A DNA stretch of 64,000 nt, taken from Epinephelus fuscoguttatus (Eukaryota; Chordata; Actinopteri; Perciformes; Serranidae). Shown in pieces: positions 5,201 to 29,659 of this stretch. The notes beneath the pieces are model-generated. The model had not been told where the DNA came from, made no database searches, and was given only the letters and a program-made list of their open reading frames with translations. Made by a program: the position numbers and the translations under genes. The stretch is from assembly GCF_011397635.1 (NCBI RefSeq), contig NC_064761.1:30731643-30795642 (forward strand), given 5' to 3'. The first letter of the stretch is position 1. Every line of letters begins with the position of its first letter.

Positions 5201-8200
5201 AATAACTCAAAAACTGGAATCACAGCATATTCATTTAAGCAATTCATCCCCCCCTGAATGAATGGATCTTAGGACTTTATTTCTTAGCTGAAACTTTAAA
5301 ACCACATTAATACCATTTTACAAAAACTGGCTTTGGTATTAAATATTTCTTTTTTTCAGTGCTGCGATCACATGAAACGCTGATGTTTCTTTTCACAGTA
5401 AAGAGAGCATATTTGGACTTGGATTGGACTGTGGCAACTAAAAAATGTCTTTCAGATTCCCTAACCCCGTCCAGTTTTCTGTTTTATATCTTTAAGGAAT
5501 ATTTCTCTTTTGTTTTAAACAGAGGAATATCCCTCAAAGATTTCTTTTATATCTTAATATTTTAAAGGAATACTTCAGTCCCCAATTGAAAATGTGTGTA
5601 TCTCAGCTCATGGCACGTTGAATTCATGAAGAAAACATTTTTCTCGCATGCCTCCACAGTGAACGCACAATCAAGAATAGAGAAAATTTCTTGATGCATT
5701 GAAGTCATTGGGGTTAGTTAGTTTGTGTTGTTGTATGACTTTGTTGAATCCAAATTAACCCTTTAACACAAATGTCACACAAAAACTACTGATCAAGGCA
5801 GTGGTAGACCAGCAGCTCCCGTGTTCAGTGAGGTAAAATTACTGTTTTTTTGTCAACATTATCTGGCTTTGAAGAGAGCACAGATTAAGTTTAACTTTCT
5901 GTTGAGTTCCTCATTGGAAAGAGGTGTCTGTTTGGGAGGTACTGAGCATACAACTGGATAAATCAGACCTGGATTATACTGCACGTTTTATAAGAGTTTG
6001 TGACTATGACTTCAATTCAACAAAATTTCCCCTTTGTTGGGATTCTTTCTTTATCAAACACGTGCCAAAAACATCATTCATTAATTAAAAAAAAAACATG
6101 AAATAAGTTATTGATATACACATGACTAGTGCAACAATTGTAACAGTGTGTTTATGAAAGCCAATGAAAACTGTATGCAGAGTTCGTAACTGACCATTAC
6201 AGAGATGTGTTTGGGTGTCCGGCAGACATTTATGTTTATTGCATGCAGAACTTACAAAGGCAGGTAACAAATACAACAACAGCATCACAGTAACATTCAG
6301 AGACATTAAAGTAGGTGCTGGGATCAAAACCAAGGATATCAGTTTGAAGTGTTAATCTCACCAAAGTGCCTCTGTTACTGCAGGACTTGTGCTGTCAGCA
6401 CCAATGGCCCTCAGGCGACACAGCACCCGGATCAAATTGCCATCCACGGCTCCAGTAACCTAGGCGACAGAGATCTTTTCAGTCATCAGTGATAAACAAG
6501 GCAGTGCAGCTATCAAGTGTGGCCCCACAATTTTTCCTCGCCCACAGAAACACACCTGACCCAGTGCAATAGAGCCTATAGCTGCAGCAGTGTAGCGTCC
6601 CACTCCAGGTAGCTGTTTCAGAAGGCCGTCGACTGTTCGAGGTATCTGCCCTTTAAGCTCTGACACCACCTGCAACAGACCAGTGATACAATGAACACTC
6701 TGCACCTTCATATTTCATAAGTGACTGTTTAGCACAATTACATCTTTGCTCTGAGCCACAAGATCACAACACAGACCTTTTGAGCTCCTTCATGCAGTCT
6801 TCTTCCTCTGGAGTAGTAGCCAAGACCCGCCCACATCTGGTTTACTTCCTACACAGAAATTAAATCAATAAATTTAGTCTGAAATCAATACAATTTTAAA
6901 ACCAGCCTCATCTTCAGAGACACTGCTTTTGTAGTGATCACCTCTAGTGTAGCAGCTGCGAGATCCTGCACCGTGGGCCAACGCTGGAATACAAGAAGAG
7001 TTTAAATTGGTGCAATATATTGATTACATTATATACTGCAAGGACTCCAGTGTGATGAACAACTCTCAACTACACCCACCTTCATCCATTTGTTGTAGTA
7101 ATCTATTACTGTGGCCACTTGGGTCTGTTGCAGCATGATTTCTGAAACCCACACTGAAAAAAATGAGAGAAAACAGTTTAATGGAGAGTGTTTACAGCAG
7201 TTAATGATGTGTAATTATGACAAGAAAAGTGGAAAAACAACACGCACATCTTACCCCGTATGAGGGTGGGTGCTGGACCAAAAAAGTTATCATGTAAAAA
7301 ACAAGTAAAGTCAACCCATGTCGGCTCTTCCTCAGATGCTTATAAGCATCTGAGGAAGAGCCGACATAGCTCAAAACGTCATGCTATAAATAAATCACAC
7401 TTGATTGGAGCTTTTTTGGTGTGCGGACTTTACTTGTTTTTTACTAATTATGACAAGAAAACATCTTCTTACCTGCATACGTTCTAATGTTGAGGTCTGA
7501 CTCTGTCACAGCCTGTAAAATAAATACAAGGAGCCTTTTAGGATACCACATTGAATGATGCATTTTATTATTGAGTAAAAATAAATGCAAAATTAAAGCA
7601 ATTTCAAGGAATTCGTGCTGAAAACCAGATGAGAATACTGTCTAAAAAAGCCAAGGCATAACAGGAAAGACTTTAGTAGAAATACGGTCAGATATTATCA
7701 TTATGAAATTAAGATTAACCACACATTATTATTGCAATATTCAATTGGGCCAATACAAAAAGGTTATGAATTTTATTTAATTTTATCTTGATTTTTAATC
7801 AGTATGTTGTGTTGCTCCCATTTCGTCTAAGTGTGACACATCACATTATCTTACACTATCTTTTTTATTTTTCCCATTTAAATGGATGTGTCACTGGTGC
7901 GTCGATCAATTTAATTAACAGGAGAGAGTGAAATGGGGGAGTGAGAGAGAGTTGGGGGATGACATGCAGCAAATGGTCGCGAGCCGGAGTCGAACCCACG
8001 ACCGCTGCAGCGAGGCATCACCTCTGTATATGGGGCGCTGCCACAACCCATACGTTACCGACACCCCATAAAATGAATTTTTGAATAATTTTGTTAATAA
8101 ATATTTCATGAGTAATAGCTGGTTGTCATTTCATATTAGTAAATAAAAACAAACATTTATGTTGTTATAAGAGTGGTAACACACATTATAGAGTCTATTC

Positions 8201-9981
8201 TGCACAACTATAAATACAGGTGTACCTTGAGATTTTGGCATGCCCTTTGGTGTGCCTTGGGTACAAAAAGTTTGAAAACCACTAACCTAAATTCATTTAC
8301 TGTGACTTTGTAATCCCTGTTTTTGTTGTTTTACTTTTAGGATCTGTACAGTGACAAAATAAGAGATTAAATGCACTAATTGGTGCACCAAATGTGGTAT
8401 GATAGAAATGTCAGTGATAAAAGCATCATTATCCAAATGGGAAAAAAATAACAGGTTTCCTGTACAATGCTATATCCTCACCTCTGAACAAAACTTGCAA
8501 CAACACCTCCTATACTTTCATAATGAAACATAACAAAGGTTTGTCTCTGACAAACAAATACTTGGATTAATAAAAGACAACATTTCTTGTCAAAACCAGA
8601 AAAAACTTTAAAAATTCTTTACCAGAGTCCTCCATGGCAGCTCTCTCTTTTCCTTGTCGTACCAGCGGAGGAGCTGAGAGCGCAGCAGCACCACATCAGC
8701 AGGATCAGGGAAAGTGTGGTATGTGGATGGTGAGGAGGCATTCGAGGTTTCCTCTGGGCAAACAAAAACATTAGTTTCATTTACACAAAGCAGACTTTTA
8801 ATAAGGCAAATGTCACTGATATTCAAGCAAGTAACTGATAACTGATACAGATATATCCACTTTTTCCCAACCTTATTTTAAGTGATCATCATGTCTCTTC
8901 TGTAGTGGAATTAACATCATATTATGCATGTCTACTCTTACTATGATGGCCCACCAGAAGATGGAGACATGAAATACAGCGCTTTTCAATGTATGTAATA
9001 TTTATTCATTGTGCAAAATAAGAAAAAGCATGTTGGCTGATTCTGATAGTTAATTTTAAAGCCGATATCAGCCATTACAGATGATGTACCTGTATTCTCG
9101 TGCATCCCTACACTATAAATGGGCTACAGACAAAAGTGCGGACAAAAATGGAGGCCAATATTGGACAGAGAGATGTGGATGAAGTCTGTCTGTCTGAAGT
9201 CTCATTATTTCAGGTTTTTTTTCAAACAGAAATGTTAGTTTTCTACAGCTGTGCTTTAGTTTTTTGTGTTAGAGTGTTAGAACATTTTGAAGAAAAAAAA
9301 AATTCACTTTAAAACCACAAATGTTATTAATATATAATATCAGTGTGTAGTTGGTGTTTTGTGTGCTTATTCTAATGATGTTTTTTTAAATACTTTACTG
9401 ATACAAAAGCACAATTTTTTAAAAAGAGTTTTGCAATTAGTGTTTGCTTTAGCAAGACATGCATGTTTTGCTGATTTTGAGTAAGGATTTGTGGCTATAT
9501 GTTCAAAAATAGTGCCGAAGCAATAAGAGAAAAATCTGCAATGTCTAATTTCCGAGGCTGTATACTTCCAAAATCAGTTGAATGAAAATCTTTGTCACAC
9601 TGTTTCAAACACAATTGCAGAAATGTAACGTCAACATCGGAATGCCAGTATGTAATGTCTGTGAGTGTCTGTTGAACAGGATAACATTACGCCATGCATG
9701 TGTTGCTTTAATTGTGTCAATCTTCCATAAATCTCGTGCAGACTGCAGGATGTTTGCAGAAAGTCATTGACACATGTTGGTTCGAATTCACTATCATATT
9801 AATATGCACAATATTCAAAGTGTCTGTGTCTGTCTTTTAACATAGTAAGTTAAATAACATGATCATGTCTGCTACCTTGTTTCACAGCTGTGTTTGACCT
9901 CTTCCGCTTTGTCTTCGCGGTCTCCACCATCTCCAGTCCGGCTCTCTTTCCTTTAACCATCGCTGAACGCAGCCTGCTCAT
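2217..9981 (-). CDS. mutyh: Adenine DNA glycosylase MUTYH (MutY homologue), 15 coding exons
   Basis: Removes adenine mispaired with 8-oxoguanine in base-excision repair. Exons: 9876-9981, 8623-8753, 7473-7512, 7080-7153, 6942-6983, 6777-6848, 6556-6669, 6362-6459, 5037-5181, 4769-4856, 4505-4687, 3086-3231, 2813-2986, 2461-2511, 2217-2360; total 535 codons plus stop, close to human isoforms. Visible parts: [10 protein letters not shown] with the catalytic Glu (about 97), helix-hairpin-helix LPGVGRYT (175-182), catalytic Asp199 in VDGN, the 4Fe-4S cysteines C253-x6-C-x2-C-x5-C269, a second cysteine group (303, 309, 312) matching the zinc linchpin, a NUDIX-like 8-oxoG recognition domain starting [11 protein letters not shown], and a C-terminal PCNA box QLSLSSFF (521-528). 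The ATG at 9981 is the first in frame after an upstream stop. The exon 13 donor (GTGTGA) is the least certain border; it keeps phase and the conserved MKKVF. The gene appears intact. Confidence 0.95.
7294..7444. repeat. Fold-back element with nested perfect palindromes in mutyh intron 3
   Basis: Two nested inverted repeats lie in the intron between mutyh exons 3 and 4. The outer arms, 7294-7312 and 7426-7444, are 19-bp perfect reverse complements. Inside is a 50-bp perfect palindrome, 7318-7367, with 25-bp arms and no spacer. The right half carries GAGCCGACAT followed by AAAACGTC and an AATAAA-like stretch, a layout I recall from tails of dispersed fish retroelements, but I cannot name the family. 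It would form a strong hairpin as single-stranded DNA or RNA. Confidence 0.8.
7921..8069 (-). repeat. tRNA-derived SINE in mutyh intron 2
   Basis: Read on the minus strand it starts with GGGGTGTCGGTAACGTA and contains a B-box-like GGTTCGACTCC, the internal RNA polymerase III promoter pattern of a tRNA-derived SINE. It continues into a non-tRNA body rich in CT. A second member of the same family is at about 20252-20402. The acceptor-stem pairing is lost, so it is not a functional tRNA gene. Confidence 0.8.
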
Positions 9982-11155: not shown

Positions 11156-15411
<4,256 letters not shown>

Positions 15412-15649: not shown

Positions 15650-16159
15650 GTCGTCACAGCTCCCTGAGTGTGTGGCCAAAGCATCAATCAGGATATCGAT
15701 CCTATTTTTTTTTTTTTAAAAAAAAGTAGCCTACTTTTAAAGTCTGTGTAACTTATATAGTTTACTTTAAGAAATGTCCCTCATGTTACAAAAAAACTAA
15801 ATAAATAAAAATAAAAAAAGTGTAAAAAGAGTCCAAAGACAATTAAGTTATGTAGATCTTATCTCTGTTAAGTTGGAGAAAATGTTGATGTCTCCAATCA
15901 TTGATTAGCTCAGTACACACCACACAGACGTTCCACAGGTCCATAATCACCTGGTGAAAGCAATATATTAGATAGATAATGTAATGGAAAATTAAGATAT
16001 AACTGTATAACCCATCACTTGTATTAACTTTCCTCAAACAAATGCCTTTTTTAAGTTGCTCACTGAGAGAACTCTCCAATGACTGCCTCCCATGTGATTT
16101 AAAAATGCTTACACAATCAAATACTATACAGGATTTGTTATGTTTGTTGCATTCTGTTC

Positions 16160-16400
16160 AAGGCTAAGTCGACTTGTTAACCACAGAACCTGTCCTAGCC
16201 GGTTGATGTCCTTGCAGGTGCAAGTATCTTCTTATCAGTTTCCTCCCTAACTTGTCTATAAAGGAGTCCCAGCAAGGATACCTTTTGTCTATACTCTGCA
16301 GACTGCCTGCTACTCTGTTTGATTGCCTGACCCTTTGCGCAAAGCATTAAAAGATTGAAAGACATCTCTGGTGTTTCAGAAATCATTATTTCAGACTCTC
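16160..16400 (+). repeat. Possible solo-LTR-like fragment (fossil, uncertain)
   Basis: The stretch has a TATA-like box (TCTATAAAGG), an ATTAAA polyadenylation-like signal some 90 bases on, and a following segment of about 60 bases, the order seen in the U3-R-U5 of a long terminal repeat. No partner repeat, internal coding region or target duplication was found. Family and age are unknown, and the ends are approximate. Confidence 0.25.
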
Positions 16401-16479
16401 ACAAGCTCATAAAGTGCATATATTTTTGGAAACCACAATATATAGATAGATAGGAAGCCCCATAGTTTATGTTATATTC

Positions 16480-17519
16480 CAGGGATGTCACTTCCGTTCA
16501 TGGGCCACATACTTAACATCCCCTTCAAAGTTTTCCCTGTTTTTAGTGTAAAGAAGTCCATTCTGAAAACATTCATCCATTTACAAAACAAACGATGAAC
16601 AGCCCACAATATCCTAAGAAAAATTATGTGCAAATTAAACAAAACCATTGACAGTCTGAAGTTTTGTCAGTGCCTCAGCAGCAGGGTTCCACCCATATTG
16701 TTTTAGATAGAAGTCTGATACAGATTCTTTTGTACTGGAGCTGCTGGTTGACAATATTTTGCACAGTGTTCAATATCTTTAAATATGATGACATGCTAGG
16801 ACTTAGGGGAGGTACAAGTCATGAGAGCAATCAGACCTTTGTGGATATGGTTTCGATGTTTGGGGTTTCCATGTGACAGGGACTCCAGGAGGGTGCATGC
16901 TGTCTCTTGGGTTTCATCTGCATTTGACTTAGCCAGGCACTCTGCTGTGACTTTCACACCTGCAAGAGTGTATGAAATAGAGAGGGCAAAACTGATATGG
17001 CTCCTGCAACGTTGCACAAATGATCTGGATGGGAAACAGAAAAAATAGATAAACCACAGAGAATGAAAACAGGTTGCAAACTATTTTTACAAAGCAGCGT
17101 CATCAAGAAGTTTGTATGTATTCAAGAAAAAAATCTTAATAAATTTTTAGCATTTCACAGATAACCTCTTTGTACTTGCGACCAGCATTTGAGACAGCGA
17201 GCAGAAGACGGAGGGCCTCTGCCTTCTCCTCCTCTTTGCTCTGAGATTGGCTCAAGATGTCCAGCACAGTGAGAACACCTCCATCCTCCAGGAACTCCAC
17301 CAGGTACTGATCACTGAGGAGAGAGAGAAAAGTGGGTTAAAGACAAAACAGAAAATATTCTCATTGTGTAAGAGAGCTGTATTCTGGTCAGCGTGCTCCT
17401 GAAACCTCCTGGCCTTCACAAGTGCATCAATATTGGGTGTGTAAAGTCATCTAGAGGGCTGGATTGGACCCTTTGGTGGGTCAGTTCTGGCCCCCTGGGC
17501 CATATGTTTGACACCCCTG
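16480..17519. mobile_element. hAT-type element carrying a captured fragment of armh1
   Basis: The element starts CAGGGATGTCA and ends TGACACCCCTG (11-bp inverted ends, one mismatch). It is bounded by a perfect 8-bp duplication TTATATTC at 16472-16479 and 17520-17527, so the 1040 bp moved as one unit. Positions 16480-16803 and 17351-17519 are transposon sequence. Between them lies a copy of armh1 DNA. It encodes no visible transposase and is non-autonomous. The right terminal 100 bases plus flank recur at 22910-23056, carried there by the lgals3bp duplication. Confidence 0.85.
16804..17350 (-). pseudogene. Transduplicated armh1 fragment (parts of exons 3 and 4 plus intron)
   Basis: Corresponds to armh1 12900-13466. 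The exon-4 copy is 16804-16959 (frame reads [20 protein letters not shown] against [20 protein letters not shown] in the source). The exon-3 copy runs to 17313. The intron between them is kept with small deletions, so the copy came from DNA, not mRNA. The donor side of exon 3 has changed (the source ATG|GTAAAA region is altered), the exon-4 copy is cut inside the exon, and there is no start codon, so no armh1 protein can be made. It has the same orientation as the source gene. Divergence is modest, mostly single substitutions. Confidence 0.9.
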
Positions 17520-17639
17520 TTATATTCTCTCTCACTTGTTGCTTTTTAGTTACATATTGCAAGAAGACCTCAAGATGTCACTGCAGTCTACAAAGTGACA
17601 AAGGTGAGGGTGTGTCAAATCATATGAATAAATGAGTAA

Positions 17640-18409
17640 TTGCATGTTTGGGAAAAAAAGTTCGAGTGCCGAAGACAATCACAGCCGTGACAATATCACA
17701 GTACAACATCACGAGCTCGAGTGTGATATTGCTTTTATACAACAGTTCAACAGTTAAATAAACAAGGCTGATTAAGAAATGTTGAAAAATGAGGACAAAA
17801 TAGTCAATTTAAGCATTTTATTTGTCTTCCGCCAACAAAAATAGTTCCCTCAGGACTCTGTCACTGTTGCTATATAACGCAGACATGGTGCGCCAGGTAC
17901 TTACTCGTTATACACATTTATCTGCACGTTTCCATTAATTGTGCAGCCGGTGAAATAAGTCTCTGGTGACTGCATGGTGGAGTGTCGCTTCACAGGCACA
18001 GCCGACTCTGCCTTCTGATCTGACAGTATGTTGCTTTTCTCCAAGTCATTGAGCTCCGCTGATCAAACACTGACAAACCTGGATGTGTGCTCAGATGGAT
18101 TCAGCTACTCCTCTCCCTCATCTTCCTCTGAAGACCATTCATAGTTCAATTCAAAACTGATTTTAGGAAATAAATCCATATTTTTGGCTGTTTGACAGTG
18201 GATGAATTAATTAGCCTACAACGCAACTGCTGACCTAACTGACACTAACTGTCAGTTTTGATTTCATTGTTGATTGCAATCAGCTGTGAGGCGGAGTGAT
18301 ACATACACAGTGAAATAACCGTGATGTTGTAGGCCTACTCCAATATCATCATGGTTTTACTGTCTCTCGACCAATCAGATTGCAGGGCCGGAACTAACTG
18401 TTGTATAAT
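17640..18409. repeat. Inverted-repeat DNA element just upstream of lgals3bp copy 1
   Basis: TTATACAACAGTT (17735-17747) and AACTGTTGTATAA (18396-18408) are perfect reverse complements, and partly matching CAATATCA motifs lie inside them. The outer left boundary is uncertain. The element stops about 20 bases before the shared CATGTCCTGAACATA-type sequence that precedes both lgals3bp genes, and the second copy lacks it. It therefore forms the distal promoter region of copy 1 only. Confidence 0.55.
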
Positions 18410-18509
18410 ATTTAACAAATGTCCTGAACATAGGACACAAAATCTTACAGAGTACAGCAGGTTAGTGCTGTTCTTTGTGTCCTTCTTTCCACAGTGCACT
18501 GCAATCAAA

Positions 18510-21500
18510 ATGAAAGAAAAGACTTTGTTACTGTTCAACATTCTTTTCCTGATCAGCTTGTCTGCTGGTGAGTAAACTGTCCTTAGTCTGTGTAGCTGTT
18601 GTAGAAGCTCAGCTTAATTTTACAATGAATCAAAAGCTAGTTTTATGAGAAAGACCAGAATTTTACTGTAAAACTAAAGTAAAACCTGAGCTCATATTGG
18701 CATCATATAATACAGACATGATTTATGCTGACTTCTCTTTCTTCTTTTTCTATTTGAATAATCATCACTGAACTCAGACGACTAAACTTGGTTGTGACAT
18801 TACTTTTTTCTACAGGTCATGAGGAAGGTTTTATCAGACTGGTTGGTGGTCAAGATCACTCTGAGGGCCGTGTGGAGATCTTTCATAATGGACTTTGGGG
18901 GACTGTGTGTGATGATGAGTGGGACATAAATGACGCTCATGTAGTGTGTCACCAGCTCCATTTCCCTGGTGCAACAGAAGCTGTAGGGTCAGCTGCATTT
19001 GGCAATGGTAAAAAAAGCTAAATCTGAAATTGTTAAACCACTCATTTTGAGTGTTATCACTCATTTGAATGGGTGTTATCAGTGGTTATACACCTCATAG
19101 ATATGGATTAGAAGGGGCCTGCAACATCTATTAGTAGGGTCAGAACGTACTATGTCTTTTGGTTTAGAAAAAAGATCACTGTTTGGGTTAAAAAGTATGT
19201 TTGTTATGTAATGCAACATGATGTAACAAACTTATTAACATCAGTTAAGATAAGTCAGTGCTAACTTTTAGTTTCACAAGGGGGCACAGTCTCTTGGGTC
19301 AAAAAAGTCATCCCTACGTGGACTTTCTTGCTCTTTATACTAACATTACGTCACCTGACTTCTTCTTCTGCTGCAGTCACAATTACTACGGCCACTGGAG
19401 GTTTCTGCTGATGAATAAACACAGCCATTTAATGGGCTGATAATGCCGTTCTATACTAGTAGATGTAGCAGGCCCCTTCTAACCCATACCTATGAGGCTG
19501 ATAACCAATGACAACATCTGTTCAATAGAGTGCTAACATTCCAAGTGGGTGGCCAACCACTACCAATGTCAACATATTGCTCTGTAATCTGTAATTTTGA
19601 AAAATATTTGTTGTCACTAAATGTTTTTATTCTGTGATTGGTTTTGTGTAGGGGATGGCAACATCTGGATGGATGATTTAGGATGTAGTGGGACAGAGAT
19701 TAGCCTGGTCCAATGTACATTTCGTGGGTGGGGGGTCCATAACTGTGGTCACACAGAAGATGCTGGTGTCAGATGCAAAAATGGTAAGGCAACCAATGTT
19801 TAAGCGAAAGGCGTAAATCTTCCATGGTGACATAAAGGAAAACAGTTAGATGCCAATTTCTCTTCACAGTAAAATCACTCACTGTTCCCATATTGATCTC
19901 CATCAGAGCCAGAACCAATCATCAGGGATCTAAGCCACGAGTATGATATAGACCACAACACAAGCCTTTCTCATCAGCTGGAGGAACTGTTTGACAATGG
20001 ACATGACTGTGACTTGAACATCGCAGTGGTGGCGCAAAGCAACAGCCTTGAGACAATCTGTGCTCACAGGGTCATCCTCTCTCTGAACTCGTTCCTCAAA
20101 ACTTCACAGTCAGACCTCAGCAGCCTCAGCATCAATACCACGCATGACTGCAGTGAGCACGCCAAGAGCTTTGTCAGGTAAAAGCAAACCTGTGACTTTA
20201 AACTGCCAAGTACTCTGTCATGCAAACCTGTGCCACATGCAGCTTTAATGGACAGGACAGATTGAAATGGGGTGAGAGAGAGAGAGTGGGGGTTGACATG
20301 CAGCAAAGGGTTGCAAGCCGGAGTCGAACCTGCGACCGCTGCAGTGAGGCATTGCCTCTGTACATGGGGCGCCGGCACTATCCACTACGCTACCGACGCC
20401 CCACCTGCAGCTGACCTTTATAACTTGATGCATATTGTATGCACTGATTAGCAATAGCTGAACCTCGCTAATTAAAATGTTTGCATTTCAGATACTTCTA
20501 CACAAGAAAGATTAAATTCACACGATCCTCTGCCTATTGCATTCTCAAGATGGCATCCGACTGGGGTCTGACAGAAGTACAGAATGAGGCTGCAAATATT
20601 TTCAGACTGTTTCTTCCAGAGGATCCCACTTTCCAGAGTCAGAGCTCTTTCTATGAGTTTGCAGTTCACACAAGGGATGAGGCACTGCAGGAAGTTTGTC
20701 TTCGCTACCTGGCGTGGAACTGTGAGGCGCTGATCCTTTCCTCAGCCTGGACAAATCTTCCACTGGGTCTGATCAAAGCTCTTCTGTCTCGCTCAGACCT
20801 TGTGGTTCGTAATGAAACTGTCATCCTGAATGGACTGGAGAGATGGGCGGCAGCCCGAGGAAACACAACCATTCCTGAGATTCTTTTGAAACTCATCCGT
20901 TTCCCACTGATACCAGCTGGGGACTTATACACACTTGATGGCTCACAGTACCAAGCCAGCAAGTTACAGGGGTTTCAGTTTAATGCTCTGCCTTTTGCAA
21001 CATTGCTAAATGACCTAAGGGAAGAACGACATGTCTACACATCCAGGATTTACACTGGTAAGCCGTGGAGCTTTACACTCAGCTACCACATCATCAAAGC
21101 TTACAAAGATTTTGGGTTCTACACTGTTGATGGCCAGCGCATGAGCAGTCTGACATCTGATTTCCAAACACCGGTTCATCACAGTGCCTATTTTGCTCTT
21201 CACAACATGCGCTGGAAAACAAAGGTCTATATCAGTGCTGCAGATTGCTCGAGTGAAGGTGTCTCTTGTCCTACTTTGCCAGCTGTTAGTTTAAAGGTTG
21301 CGGAAAGGAACAGTGATCTACCCAGTGAGATGGAGGGACATATTCGTTACAGTAACAGGCTCATTGTCATGTGTGATGGGAGGTATGTGTTCCACGTTCA
21401 TGAATTTAATGCTGTTGATGGAGATAATCTGGTGTTTGTCCCAAGAGGCGCAGAACAAGTCTATCCATGTCACTCAAACCTGTTCTCCTACCAGGTGGTG

Positions 21501-21527
21501 GTGCGACCTCACTACTCCACAGATTAG
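18510..21527 (+). CDS. lgals3bp: Galectin-3-binding protein-like, copy 1 (SRCR-BTB-BACK)
   Basis: Secreted glycoprotein; the mammalian family member binds galectins and matrix and modulates immune responses. Exons: 18510-18567, 18816-19007, 19652-19783, 19907-20177, 20492-21527; 562 codons (human 585). The N-terminus [19 protein letters not shown] is a signal peptide. Exons 2-3 encode one SRCR domain (about 27-127) with the typical VCDDEWD, VVCHQL, LGC, VQC and VRC cysteines. Exon 4 gives a BTB domain ([18 protein letters not shown]). Exon 5 gives BACK and the family's C-terminal beta-rich region. A 5' non-coding exon is likely, because an acceptor (CCACAG) lies 17 bases before the ATG. Polyadenylation signals are at 21699-21704 and 21893-21898. 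Intron 2 holds a 430-bp inverted-repeat element and intron 4 a SINE, both absent from copy 2. The gene looks intact. Confidence 0.92.
19078..19507. repeat. Inverted-repeat element in intron 2 of lgals3bp copy 1
   Basis: The left arm (CCTCATAGATATGG, GAAGGGGCCTGC; from about 19092) and right arm (GCAGGCCCCTTC, CCATACCTATGAGG; to about 19494) pair over about 45 bases with few mismatches. Weaker pairing extends to GGTTAT/ATAACC outside. The matching intron of copy 2 is only 176 bp and lacks it, so it inserted after the duplication or was lost from copy 2. Family not identified. Confidence 0.75.
20252..20402 (-). repeat. tRNA-derived SINE in intron 4 of lgals3bp copy 1
   Basis: Minus strand begins GGGGCGTCGGTAGCGTAGTG (A-box) and contains GGTTCGACTCC (B-box), followed by the family body. 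It belongs to the same family as 7921-8069 and is better preserved. TGCAGCT on both sides is a possible short target duplication. It is absent from the corresponding intron of copy 2. Confidence 0.85.
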
Positions 21528-21889
21528 TTTCTGTTTCCTCTGGGAACTTCAGCAAAGAGGATATGGACAGGGATGATTTATGAACAGCATATTGTCTGTT
21601 ATCATGAGAAACCTTATCTTTTATCAGGTACTTTTACACTCAACAGATTACATTAGTTATTTCATTTAGAAGATGTAGTTGACTTAATAATTGTTTTTAA
21701 TAAATGTAAATGTGTCAAGTTTGAGAAAGTCAGCAATAGGATTCATACACACATGCTACATTCTGTAAAAGGCTTGTAGTGTGAAGGGAGGTGCATGTTT
21801 CCTATGTTAGAGGTAATGATTTTGAGCTTAGAGTCTCAATACAGCATTTGTTCTGGCAAATAACAGTATACGGTACAAGTCTTTTCATG

Positions 21890-22683
21890 CTTAATAAACC
21901 TGTTCTACCAACTGGAGATGCATCATCTCACTTATGTTTGGCCACATCAACAAAGTAGAGGTGGAGGAGGCTAGAGAGGCCACTGAATGCATCATATTAA
22001 ACTTCAGCAGAAAATACATAAACATGCAGTGTACTGCGAGACTAAAGATCATTAAGATGAATTTCATATTTCATTTTTGAAATAAGGTAAACAGTGCAAT
22101 TCAGCAGTATGACTGTGTTTTACAAGGTTGTGTCATAAAAAAAGAATTGTGACTGTTATTTTACAGATTGTCACTGTTATCGTACCTTCAAAGAATGTGC
22201 AGGATGACCACCGCTCCACTCAGCTTAGTCTTTGCGAAGCTGCTGAAAGCATCAGTGAGTCCAATCTGAAAGAGGAGATTTACGCACACTTAGATCTGTG
22301 CAGTGTTTTACCTTATTTTAGGCTTTCTGCTATCAGACAAAGCAAGATTCAACAGTGGACAGGCAGTAGTCATTGGCAGTATGTAACGCACCTGTGCACA
22401 TCCTGGTGGAAAAAGCTCCACCTCTTGGGAATCGTAGTTTTTAAATACTGGATGAGGAGCTGTTAGGCATACAAATGGAAGCCATTCTTGTTATAAAACA
22501 CAAGAAATGGTGCTCCAAATAATGTTAAATAGTTTTTTGGTATTACCATAATAGTTTGTAGTTTTAAGACAAGCATTTATACAAGGTTGTGTCAGAAAAA
22601 TGCTGTAAGTGTGTCCATGTATTCCAAATGAATTTGGTAAAAATATAGTCTCATTTGTCCACACCTGTGCCTAAAGTGATTTA
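21890..22683 (+). repeat. Copy-1 3' flank shared with copy 2
   Basis: This segment is highly similar to 28881-29651 and marks the downstream part of the tandem duplication. An open frame at 22128-22466 has a shorter counterpart at 29140-29382, but the shared similarity is at DNA level, the start differs and no domain is seen. I treat it as duplicated 3' UTR or flank, not a gene. Confidence 0.65.
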
Positions 22684-22909: not shown

Positions 22910-23056
22910 CAAGTGCATCAATACTGGGTGTGTAAAGTCTTCTAGAGGGCTGGATTGGACCCTTTGGCGGGCCAGTTCTGGCCCCCCAGCTGTATGTTTG
23001 ACACCCCTGTCAATTCTCTCTCACTTGTTGCTTTTTTGTTACATATTGCAAGAAGG
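22910..23056. repeat. Duplicated right end of the hAT element plus flank
   Basis: Matches 17419-17566 over about 147 bases: the transposon right end (ending GACACCCCTG) plus about 45 bases of unique flank (TCTCTCACTTGTTGC, TACATATTGCAAGAAG). Because the match continues past the transposon end, it is a segmental duplication and not a second insertion. It sits immediately before the second lgals3bp gene and marks the left edge of the duplicated unit. Confidence 0.75.
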
Positions 23057-23784
23057 AAGCTTATTCAAGACAGAGGATGTGCAATAAAAGAAGGCCCTGC
23101 AGCCTCCTGACATCTTTATAAAACATGTGTTTTTCCAGTTTAGTGTTGTAGGCTGTAGGAATTGGTGATGACTAATGCCTAATAAGCATGCTAACATAAC
23201 ACCATGGCACCATAAACAAATTTGACATAATTACTGCATGTGTGGTAGAAATCACTTTTAAAAATGGCCTTTGTGGGAATAATAAAATGTGACATCAGAA
23301 CTATTTTTCTGAAACACCCTTTTAGTGGGAGTGGTCATTCCTGGAAAATAGCTGTTTACAGCTTGTTAAATTCTGCTCAGAGTTTCACCATTGTTCCTTC
23401 AGTGAGATGCCTTTCTTTTGTTCACTTCATTTTGAGTTCTGGTAAGTTCATCTCTACTTTTAACCAGAAAATGTATAGGCTACTGATGGCATGCACATTA
23501 TTTGTGTAGAGAGAAACTTTGGAGCAAATTATGGACAATTTGTCATTATGGTAAATAATCTATGTCACCACATAAATGCTCAGCAAAGTTGTATTTGCAT
23601 GTGTTTGTGTATATTGGGTCATGTGTGAGAAAACTCTAATGTCTAATGTCTGTCAGACTTAGCTCTGGGTGTAAAGAAGCTGTAGTGAATGGTCACTATT
23701 AAACACATGTCCTGAACATAGAATTAAAAAACCTAAAAAGTGCTGTTCCTTGTTTCCTTCTTTCCCCAGTGCACTGCAATCAAA

Positions 23785-26700
23785 ATGAAAGAAAAGACTT
23801 TGTTATTATTTGGTATTCTTTTCCTGATCAGCTTGTCTACTGGTGAGTAAACTGTCCTCAACCGGTGCAACTAGAACCTCTGTTGTACTAAATATGTTCA
23901 AGCTCAGCTTAATTTAACAATGAAAATAATGAAAATTACCTTCTTGAAATCAATCGACTTTTCTCCCAAAATTTTTCTCCTCTCTTTGAGAGGTGTAAAC
24001 TAGATTTTGACAGATGGGCTGGTCTCCCATTATTCCTAGTAGGTTGAGTCAGTTTGGTTAAAATGATTGTTTTACCAAAGTTCTTATATCTTTTTTCACA
24101 TATCCCCGTACTGATTAAGAAGTCATTTTTTAGATCACTTGATCAATTAATAATTTCAGTCCTCTGGGGAAATAAAAATCCACGCATCTGGAGATCAGTG
24201 CTACAGCTCCCCAAAGCTCTGGGTGGCTTAGCATTGCCCAATTTCTTACACTATTACTGGTCTTGTAATATTCATAAACTTTTTATATTGGATTAACAAC
24301 ACAGCAGACGACATGCGCCCTGCAAGGGTGGAGATGGAACTGCATCCTCTAAACTCTCTCTTCATTCCCTGGATGGCTCTCAACTCCCTTTGACTGCCTC
24401 CAACTTTACCTCAAACCCAGTGGTAATTAACTCTGTTAGACACTGGATCCAAATTAGGAAATGCCTAGGCCTTCAGGGCCTCAGACCTCTCCCTCACTGT
24501 AATCGTTCACCTATTTCTGCCCTCTAGCACTGATTTAACCTTTCGGACTTGGTTTGACAAAGGGATAACAAAATTTAAGGACCTTTACAACCAAGAGTCT
24601 TTTATGTCCTTTTCTGAGCTCTCAAAGAAATTTTACTTACCTAAATCCCACCTATTTCATTTTTTCAGCTAAGGCATTTCATTCGGAATCAGAACCCCAA
24701 ATTCCCTAGTCGTCCTCCAGATACTCTGGTAGACTCTTTATTGGCTCTTGATCCTGGACAAAAGCGGCTAATTTCTTGCATCTACAGCCTTATCAATTCT
24801 ACTATTGATAGCCCAGCGTTGTTGAAAAAAGACTTGTATGATCAAATCAGTTCACAGCCTTCTGTGGGTATTTTATTGAAGACACAACTTGCAACAATGA
24901 GACAGCACTGTAGAGCAGTTCACCAAACATTCTTATACTCCTCAGACAAACATCATACCTAACTTTCCATGTGTGTGTTTGTGTTGTCCTGCCATTTCCC
25001 AGAACTTGTTTCACCATCTCAGTGTTTGCCAGGTCACTTTGTTTTCACTATCACAGTGTTTGCCAGGTCAGTCTGCTCTTAGACTTCCCCCCAGAGTGAG
25101 ACCATTCAGGATTATTCAATTTTAGTAAACACGTTTTACTTCTAGCTTTATCTCAACTCCCAGACATTTCTTGGCCTTTTCGCTACCACATATTTTCTTT
25201 TCTACCAATTAGGTAGAACATACATAAATAATTTCAAATTTCCAGATTACCGTTACTGTCAGATTTTATGTGCCCATACATGTGTGTAAGGTCATTGATC
25301 TGTGTTGGTGAAACTGCCCTGTAGTGGTGCTGTTAACTTGCAGTGAAGAACGTATAACTGAAGAGTAACAATACCTTATTAATTATGTTAGTGCGTGATT
25401 AGAGAATTCCCTTAACCATAATAAACTACACAAATCAAGGTTACACAAAATTAGGGTTCACACCGTTTAAGAGTGAAAAACCTGTCGGCTATTTACAGGA
25501 TTCTCTTATGGCCCCTCCCGCTGGCAACCTTTAATGTGAAAGTAAAATTGTGCACAAAGCTCACTACACTAATTTGAGGCTTTCTTGGATTTACGCCAAT
25601 GTTCTGGTCCCGTCCCATGCTTGCCACCTCCTGGTCTGAAATCTTCAGAACTCTTAGCACAGCATATAATACTATCACTCCTGCACCTGTCTTGGCCTTG
25701 TTTGGTGCCCCCTTGCAGCCTATTACCTCTAAAGTCATGCAGACTGTTCTTGCCCTTACCACCCTGTTGGCCAGGCGACTCATACTCCTTAATTGGAAAC
25801 ACCCTCAACCTCCATCTCACAACAGGTGGGTGAAAGAGCTGTTCCTGTCCATTAGACTGGAAAAGCTTAGATTTCCCCTCAATGCCTCCTAAACTCATTT
25901 GAAAAGACTTGACAATCTCTCTTAAATCATATTTAATCCTTGACATCTTTGTGATGACTATTGTTAACATGATATTAATGGATGTACAATGATAATCGCT
26001 CTCCCTTGGGTGGGATGTGACTGTGGGAGGGATAAAAAGATAAGGGAAAAATTGAAAGACTGGATGTTTTCTTTGTCACATTCCACTGTTGTGTTGTTGC
26101 TCCCAATAAAGAGAGTTAAAAGAAAAAACCTTCTTGAGTGAATAAACAACACCCTTGATAGCAATATATGTGTAAGTAATAAACTCAAATCACTCAGTTA
26201 AAAAATCTATGGTGTATTTTAACCAAAATAGTATTACAACCACTGCAAAATTTTCAGCTGGCAAATAGTGGATATACGTAACAGTCGACTGGTAAGTAAC
26301 TGGCCTTCATACATTTTATAAATGAAATTGAGGCAAGATATCTGTCTGTCAAAGTCACATATTATTGTAAATACAAAACAAAACCTGGGCTCATGGCATG
26401 ATATTACTTATTAACAGGCATGGTTTACTTATGTAAATGCAAACTTCTTTTTCATCTTCACTATTTGAGTAAATTTTATAACATCACATTTTTCTACAGG
26501 TCATGAGGAAGGTTTAATCAGACTGGCTGGTGGTCAAGATTACTATGAGGGTCGTGTGGAGATCTTTCATGATGGAGTTTGGGGGACTGTGTGTGATGAT
26601 GACTGGGACATAAATGACGCTCATGTAGTGTGTCACCAGATCCACCTCCCTGGTGCAGCAGAAGCTGTAGGGTCTGCTGCATTTGGCAATGGTAATAAAG

Positions 26701-28532
26701 TTCATTTGACTGTGACCCTCTTAGACTCAAAGCAGGGTACAGTCATATATGTGCCAGACACTAACATGCTGCTTTTGGAAACCTGTAACACGTATTTTTT
26801 AACAATATTTGCTTCAAACGACTACATTATCACTATCTGTTTTTATTCTCTAATTGGTTTTGTGTAGGGGATGGCAGAATCTGGATGGATGATTTAGGAT
26901 GTAGTGGGACAGAGAAGAGCCTGGTCCAATGTACATTTCGTGGGTGGGGGGTCCATAACTGTGCTCACACAGAAGATGCTGGTGTCAGATGCAAAAATGG
27001 TAAGGCAACCGATCTTTGAGCAAGAGGTAAGAATCTTCTAACTCCCCTTTTCCTTACAATAAAATTACTCAGTGTCCATATTAATCTCCATCAGGAACAA
27101 AACCAATCAACAGGACTCTAAGCCACGAGTATGATGTAGACCACAAAACAAGCCTTTCTCAACAGCTGGGGGAACTGTTTGACAGTGGACATGACTGTGA
27201 CTTGAACATCACAGTGGTGGCGCAAAACAACAGCCTTGAGACAATCTGTGCTCACAGGGTCATCCTCTCTCTGAACTCCTTCTTCAAAACTTCACAGACA
27301 GACCTCAGCAGCCTCAGCATCAATACCACGCATGACTGCAATATTTATGCCAAGAGCTTTGTCAGGTAAAAGCAAACCTGTGACTTTAAACTGCCAAGTA
27401 CTCTGTCATGCCACTTGGAGCTGTTTTTATAACTTCCAGTTGTATGCACTGATTAGCAATAGCTGAACCTCGCTAATTAAAATGTTTGCATTTCAGATAC
27501 TTCTACACAAGAAAGATTAAATTCACACGATCCTCTGCCTATTGCATTCTCAAGATGGCATCCGACTGGGGTCTGACAGAAGTACAGAATGAGGCTGCAA
27601 ATATTTTCAGACTGTTTCTTCCAGAGGATCCCACTTTCCAGAGTCAGAGCTCTTTCTATGAGTTTGCAGTTCACACAAGGGATGAGGCACTGCAGGAAGT
27701 TTGTCTTCGCTACCTGGCGTGGAACTGTGAGGCGCTGATCCTTTCCTCAGCCTGGACAAATCTTCCACTGGGTCTGATCAAAGCTCTTCTGTCTCGCTCA
27801 GACCTTGTGGTTCGTAATGAAACTGTCATCCTGAATGGACTGGAGAGATGGGCGGCAGCCCGAGGAAACACAACCATTCCTGAGATCCTTTTGAAACTCA
27901 TCCGTTTCCCACTGATACCAGCTGGGGACTTATACACACTTGATGGCTCACAGTACCAAGCCAGCAAGTTACAGGGGTTTCAGTTTAATGCTCTGCCTTT
28001 TGCAACATTGCTAAATGACCTAAGGGAAGAACGACATGTCTACACATCCAGGATTTACACTGGTAAGCCGTGGAGCTTTACACTCAGCTACGACATCGTC
28101 AAAGCTTACAAAGATTTTGGGTTCTACACTGTTGATGGCCAGCACATGAGCAGTCTCACATTTGATTTCCAAACACCAGTTCATCACAGTACCTATTTTG
28201 CTCTTCACAACATGCGCTGGAAAACAAGGGTCTATATCAGTGCTGCAGATTGCTCGAGTGAAGGTGTCTCTTGTCCTACTTTGCCAGCTGTTAGTTTAAA
28301 GGTTGAGGAAAGGAACAGTGATCTACCCAGTGAGATGGAGGGACATATTCGTTACAGTAACAGGCTCGTTGTCATGTGTGATGGGAGGTATGTGTTCCAC
28401 GTTCATGAATTTAATGCTACTGATGGAGATAATCTTGTATTTGTCCCAAGAGGCACAGAACAAGTCTATCCATGTCACTCAAACCTGTTCTCCTACCAGG
28501 TGGTGGTGTGTCCTTACTACTCCATAGATTAG
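23785..28532 (+). CDS. lgals3bp: Galectin-3-binding protein-like, copy 2 (SRCR-BTB-BACK)
   Basis: Tandem sister of copy 1 with identical exon sizes: 23785-23842, 26500-26691, 26868-26999, 27095-27365, 27497-28532; 562 codons. The signal peptide is [23 protein letters not shown] cysteines, BTB (SLSQQLGEL to NTTHDC) and BACK are all present. The two proteins differ mainly in the SRCR/BTB exons and in the last 150 residues (for example SYDIVKAY against SYHIIKAY). The first 190 or so residues of exon 5 are identical. It ends in YYSID instead of HYSTD, and one extra cysteine (VVVCPYY) replaces Arg near the end. Intron 1 is expanded to 2.66 kb by an L1. Polyadenylation signals are at 28704-28709 and 28884-28889. 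The gene looks intact. Confidence 0.92.
23948..26127 (+). mobile_element. 5'-truncated L1-type LINE in intron 1 of lgals3bp copy 2
   Basis: About 2.18 kb flanked by the 10-bp direct repeat ACCTTCTTGA (23938-23947 and 26128-26137), as left by target-primed reverse transcription. Reading frames on the + strand show the ORF2 C-terminus typical of vertebrate L1: [47 protein letters not shown], and near the end [13 protein letters not shown]. The 3' end has AATAAA and an A-rich tail. It carries several frame breaks, so it is dead, and the reverse transcriptase core is missing by 5' truncation. It is absent from copy 1. Confidence 0.9.
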
Positions 28533-28779
28533 TTTCTGTTTCCTCTGGGAACTTCAGGAAACAGGATACAGACAGGGATGATTTATGAACAGCATATTAT
28601 CTGATATCAGGACAAATTTTTCTTTAATCAGGTACTTATACACTCAACAGTTAACATTTCATTATTTCATTTAGAAGATGTAGTTGACTGAATAACTGTT
28701 TTTAATAAATAAAACACATGTAAATGTATGAAGTCAGCAATAGGATTCATACACACATGTTACATTCTGTAAAAGGCTT

Positions 28780-28798
28780 GGGGGGGGGGGGGGGGGGG
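28780..28798 (+). repeat. Poly-G run of 19
   Basis: Nineteen consecutive G in the 3' region of lgals3bp copy 2. The matching place in copy 1 (about 21774-21794) has a mixed sequence without the run. It could form a quadruplex in the transcript if the distal polyadenylation site is used, or its length could be an assembly or sequencing artefact. Confidence 0.9.
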
Positions 28799-29659
28799 CA
28801 TGTTTCTTGTGTTAAATGTAGTGTTTTTGAGGTTGCATTTGTTCTAACAAATAACAGTATATGGTACAAGTCTTTTCATGCTTAATAAACCTGTTCTACC
28901 AACTGGAGATGCGTCATCTCACTTATGTTTGGCCACATCAACAAAGTAGAGGTGGAGGAGGCTAGAGAGGCCACTGAATGCATCATATTAAACTTCAGCA
29001 GAAAATACATAAACATGCAGTGTACTGCGAGACTAAAGATCATAAAGATGAATTTCATATTTCATTTTTGAAATAAGGTAAACAGTGCAATTCAGCAGTA
29101 TGACTGAATTTTACAAGGCTGTGTCATTAAGAAAGAATTGTGACTGTTATTGTACCTTCAAAGAATGTGCAGGATGACCACCGCTCCACTCGGGTTAGTC
29201 TTCACGAAGGTGCTGAAAGCATCAGTGAGTCCAATCTGAAAGAGGAGATTTACGCACACTTAGATCTGTGCAGTGTTTTACCTTATTTTAAGCTTTCTGC
29301 TATCAGACAAAGCAAGATTCAACAGTGGACAGGCAGTAGTCATTGGCAGTATGTAACGCACCTGTGCACATCCTGGTGGTAGAAGCTCCACCTCTTGGGA
29401 ATTGTAATTTTTAAATACTGGATGAGGGACTGTTAAGCATACAAACGGAAGCCATACTTGTTATAAAACACAAGAAATTGTGCTCTGAATAATCTAAAAT
29501 AATTGTTTAGCATTACCATAATAGTTTGTAGTTTTAAGACAACTATTTATACAAGGTTGTGTCAGAAAAATGCTGTAGGTGTGTCCATGTATTCCAAATG
29601 CATTGCATGCATGTTAAAAATATAGTCTCATCTGTGCCTAAAGTGATTTAGAAAGATTC

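Follow-up and report, generated by a model that had tools for sequence, protein, structure and literature searches.

A hAT-like transposon copy filled with exons and an intron of its neighbour armh1: a probable product of local gap filling in Epinephelus fuscoguttatus

How does a piece of a gene, intron included, come to lie inside a transposon only a few kilobases from the gene itself? This question is raised by a locus of Epinephelus fuscoguttatus in which positions 16480-17519 of the stretch analysed (hereafter the window: 64,000 bp of NC_064761.1, our contig C10 in a genome searched as 26 contigs and 1.05 Gb) are a non-autonomous hAT-like element interrupted by about 559 bp of armh1 DNA. 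The left part of the element runs from 16480 to 16788 (+ strand, element positions 1-309), the captured segment with its junctions from 16789 to 17347 (in the armh1 orientation, that is -, element positions 310-868), and the right part of the same element from 17348 to 17519 (+ strand, element positions 869-1040). An exact 8-bp target-site duplication (TSD), TTATATTC, stands on the + strand at 16472-16479 and again at 17520-17527, and the 1040-bp composite unit between the two copies opens with the terminal inverted repeat (TIR) CAGGGATGTCA (16480-16490) and closes with TGACACCCCTG (17509-17519), each directly abutting its TSD; the family form of these ends is CAGGGGTGTCAAAC and GTTTGACACCCCTG. 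The initial annotation had described just such a direct repeat and inverted ends and had called the unit a hAT-type element, and both descriptions hold, with 8-bp TSDs recurring across the family. We take the CAGGG...CCCTG motif of the ends to be typical of hATs. The element itself lacks any coding capacity.

The captured DNA has one evident donor. By BLAST, 16794-17348 aligns to 12889-13462 (- strand) inside armh1; of the 596 alignment columns, 479 are identical and 63 are gaps, and the E value is about 1e-160. The aligned copy is about 555 bp long, as against about 559 bp for the captured segment with its junctions. The copy holds the end of intron 2, exon 3, the whole of intron 3, which aligns between donor and copy, and most of exon 4. 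It had been read as a copy of armh1 including the intron between exons 3 and 4, which stands, with donor limits of 12900-13466, which differ slightly from those of the alignment. In the donor, exon 3 (13261-13427, -) and exon 4 (12858-13054, -, the copied part of which starts at 12889) both have their AG and GT splice signals, and the region 15172-15411 (-) contains the exon with the presumed start codon (15411) and a splice donor. Four exons joined from the minus strand of the window match Pfam DUF5578 (PF17741), which we take to be ARMH1, with an E value of 2.4e-105, and the copy of exon 3 alone matches PF17741 at 2.1e-24. A literature search for ARMH1 together with a transposon gave nothing related. 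Next to armh1, at 6463-8877 on the minus strand, are exon-like frames that resemble MUTYH, one 26-residue piece of which weakly matches HhH-GPD (E 0.0005, below the curated cut-off), and 7318-7367 is a 50-bp perfect palindrome-like self-match between opposite strands.

Was the copy made from DNA, and was it made once? Intron 3 is kept, which confirms the earlier view of a capture at the DNA level and rules out a processed retrocopy. In the genome, the captured stretch has two places only, itself and the donor (both of the two candidates were scored). The initial annotation had proposed asking whether any other copy of the family holds armh1 DNA; run genome-wide with the captured stretch, this search found none besides the loaded element and the donor, and an amplified Pack element is ruled out because the captured stretch is single apart from its donor. 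Copy and donor are 3,332 bp apart. The insertion had been placed about 1 kb upstream of its source, a figure that does not apply to the donor and fits instead the 1,069 bp from the start of the element to the first (presumed) start codon of armh1. Beside the donor there is no member of the element family: in a search of the whole window, the matches of the element were confined to itself, to the donor and to 22910-23009.

To what family does the element belong? In the same genome, the left end (324 bp) and the right end (169 bp) each found more than 1,100 candidates at first look, 40 of which were scored in each case, and the two ends are consecutive parts of one element, which bears out the assumption that both belong to one family. 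Because each end has so many first-look matches in the same genome, the ends are not chance resemblances, and two unrelated flanking repeats are ruled out by their being consecutive parts of one element. The element without its insert found 1,678 first-look candidates; the closest matches among the 40 of these that were scored cover its right two thirds and match it at 81-83%. TSDs were examined at 61 family loci, of which 18 with an unrecognised end were left out. The 43 copies with both ends recognisable have a median length of 653 bp (570-725 bp in 29 of them), and 23 of the 43 are flanked by 8-bp repeats with two mismatches or fewer (7 exact), as against 137 of 1806 swapped left/right pairs; the remaining 20 have flanking repeats with three or more mismatches. 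Positions 4-5 of the TSD are mostly TA across the family, as in TTATATTC. A TA-centred TSD may be linked to the Buster group of hATs. The consulted part of PMC3942097 gives 8 bp as the length of hAT TSDs and does not confirm a TA centre for the Buster group.

Is the element itself intact on either side of the armh1 DNA? Based on the 33 family rows selected as reaching the interruption point, the element is continuous there in 28 (L012 and L030 are the same place), and the five exceptions have internal deletions at that point. A comparison of 58 family loci showed 6 in which only 1-3 bp separate element positions 308/309 from 868/869. The parent was therefore an ordinary non-autonomous element from which almost nothing was lost, the missing sequence at this interior breakpoint amounting to about 0-5 bp. 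Microhomology is weak: at the right junction it amounts to about 2 bp, with a 17% expectation by chance. At the left junction, a 5-bp switch at GACCA predicts the right length but leaves 7 mismatches in 30 bases, and filler bases are equally likely.

The single copy, the nearby donor and the near-lossless interior breakpoint are consistent with a mechanism in which the element was inserted first and armh1 DNA was copied into it afterwards by repair, a Pack-hAT made by local gap filling, and we consider this order of events likely; the slightness of the microhomology and the size of the copy, close to the largest of those described by Pace et al. (2009, PMC2671141), count against it. We posit that a hAT-like, non-autonomous element some 0.6-0.7 kb long landed upstream of armh1, duplicating the 8-bp site TTATATTC, and that a break or stalled fork later occurred within it. 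Repair synthesis would then have switched template to nearby armh1, copied about 0.56 kb and returned to the element, hardly any of which was lost, leaving a single-copy Pack-hAT in which the copied exon parts would have decayed neutrally. We prefer capture after insertion because the copy number, the distance to the donor, the size of the gap and the position of the breakpoint all agree with it: the captured DNA is single copy, its donor lies within 15 kb, and the gap is small and interior, as in the gap-filling subclass of Pack-TIRs, and several copies of the same captured DNA at different TSDs, the mark of the transposed subclass, are absent from the genome. The initial annotation had put the capture first and the insertion second; a single loaded copy, a donor 3.3 kb away and an internal breakpoint that lost about 0-5 bp make up the published pattern of the reverse order.

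How old are the two events? Against the family majority, the element shows 31 differences in 441 positions, or 0.070 (95% interval 0.050-0.098), a count that leaves out the first 34 element positions, where too few copies are aligned, and that is unevenly spread (12/270 on the left, 19/171 on the right). Between filler and donor there are 24 differences in 314 coding positions and, in the confident non-coding blocks, 21 in 164, about 0.064 per branch for these blocks; for the intron, the whole alignment gives 37/170, above the confident blocks at 18/129. Because 0.070 for the element is so close to about 0.064 per branch for the filler, capture and insertion appear, within error, to be of similar age and the capture appears no older than the insertion, and a capture very long after the insertion seems unlikely. 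Equal ages do not, for their part, separate a capture that followed the insertion from one that came just before it.

Since the ages are equal within error, excision-linked repair and capture before insertion both stay compatible with them. Could the capture, then, have taken place while the hAT family was still jumping, either as an excision was being attempted or shortly before a local hop over a small distance? We regard this as doubtful; if true, it would mean a vertebrate hAT caught in the act of taking up host exons as it transposed, as opposed to one that served only as a passive site of breakage. The hop would require that armh1 DNA was captured elsewhere near armh1, by abortive gap repair after excision, and that the loaded element then moved about 1 kb upstream. 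hAT elements are capable of local hops, which would favour this course, as would the equal ages and the TSDs that enclose the whole composite. We nevertheless think it unlikely, given that the genome holds no further copy with armh1 DNA, that the multicopy, transposed cases described by Tan et al. (2021, PMC8277862) are always distal to their donors, and that the near-lossless interior breakpoint is set against the large terminal losses which the same work leads one to expect of excision repair. Alternatively, transposase may have cut the inserted element in place, and incomplete repair may have taken up armh1 DNA and made other internal deletions as well. Besides the equal ages, this would account for the absence, relative to the family, of stretches of about 45 bp at 33/35, about 110 bp at 162/163 and about 50 bp at 912/915 of the armh1-loaded element; however, family copy L055 is without a similar 912/915 piece and other copies carry deletions of their own, such that the losses may be ordinary decay, and the capture breakpoints are interior with almost no element lost, which together make excision-linked filling quite improbable. 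An accidental composite, in which an ordinary segmental or tandem duplication of armh1 came to lie between independent repeat fragments, has a larger local tandem duplication nearby (17419-22683 versus 22910-29650) to recommend it and is nonetheless extremely improbable, as the two ends join at the interruption point as successive parts of a single element, matching TSDs lie outside them, and no element lies beside the donor.

That larger duplication deserves a description of its own. The colinear matches between 17419-22683 and 22910-29650 show 4.8-8.5% mismatch, except for one block (12.5%) and another, short one (19.6%), and an 801-bp part of the stretch has two copies in the genome, which are 99% identical. 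A later copy of the element's right end with 47 bp of its right flank (source 17419-17566) lies at 22910-23055 (+), differing at 10 of 146 positions, and opens this colinear series. The matches look like the product of a local tandem duplication whose left edge falls within the right end of the hAT element and which has no bearing on the order of the armh1 capture. To the left of the element, 16100-16437 belongs to another dispersed repeat, with 17 candidates of which the best reaches 91% across most of the stretch; it ends some 42 bp short of the element. To the right, a high-copy repeat begins at 17663-17900 (a first look gave 1,017 candidates, and the scored copies besides this one, 39 in number, are 93-96% identical), and inverted partial copies stand beside many of its members.

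Are the copied exons still of use? Based on the codon comparison, copied exons 3 and 4 have 7 + 7 amino-acid-changing codons as against 2 + 3 silent ones, counted without exon 4 positions 12889-12904, where the junction is uncertain. Both copied exons retain their acceptor AGs, and no stop falls within the aligned exon parts that were counted, which points weakly towards function. Functional duplicated exons are opposed by the 14 changing as against 5 silent codons, by the loss of the splice donor of copied exon 3 and by copied exon 4, which is cut short and then runs into a stop. To judge from these changes, the copied armh1 parts look like a neutral, decayed fragment.

Does the locus add a new kind of event to those already described? 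The initial annotation called it a plausible vertebrate Pack-hAT, and the name is apt: both flanking pieces come from the same element and reach its ends, the roughly 559 bp of internal DNA falls within the 100-5000 bp required of Pack-TIRs and has one unambiguous parental copy in armh1, the intron is present, and no element lies within 100 bp of the donor in the window-wide search. The accompanying statement that such capture is much rarer in vertebrates than in plants needs qualifying, in that Tan et al. (2021, Nat Commun, PMC8277862) report 370 Pack-TIRs in 100 animal genomes, 8 of them in zebrafish and 208 in hATs, the class most often represented. In their view, single-copy Pack-TIRs arise by gap filling after insertion; the donor is within 15 kb in 160 of 281 single-copy cases (under 5 kb in most of those), microhomology is present in 190 of the 281, the median gap is 4.6% of the element, and breakpoints are interior. 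The armh1 case is like their single-copy hAT Pack-TIRs in its TIR and TSDs, its one donor closer than 5 kb, its single copy, its interior breakpoint and its small gap. It differs in that its capture looks about as old as its insertion and in that the order of events rests on one genome, whereas 91 of 97 primate cases in that survey had an empty orthologous element in the outgroup (PMC8277862).

Repair-mediated duplications are a second point of reference. Pace et al. (2009, PLoS Genet, PMC2671141) count 824 proximal ones in human and 80 in zebrafish, lying within repeats, up to 619 bp long (the human maximum) and with donors under 5 kb. The likeness is close: a repeat is interrupted by DNA whose sole other copy is within 5 kb, and exons are copied together with introns. 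The armh1 copy, at about 555 bp, is near the 619-bp top of the proximal human sizes, and its breakpoints are less clearly marked, probably because age has blurred them. Plant Pack-MULEs and Pack-TYPE elements likewise carry gene fragments with introns, but are often multicopy and moved by transposition, whereas the armh1 case is single-copy and local. The armh1-loaded element is thus a further instance of a well-described and catalogued event in animal genomes, and the known picture is unchanged. Nonetheless, it illustrates, cleanly and readably, that transposon copies close to genes serve as places where copies of neighbouring exons land, and the near-equal ages of insertion and capture make it a fair case for asking whether attempts at excision, and not passive fragility, trigger such captures in fish.
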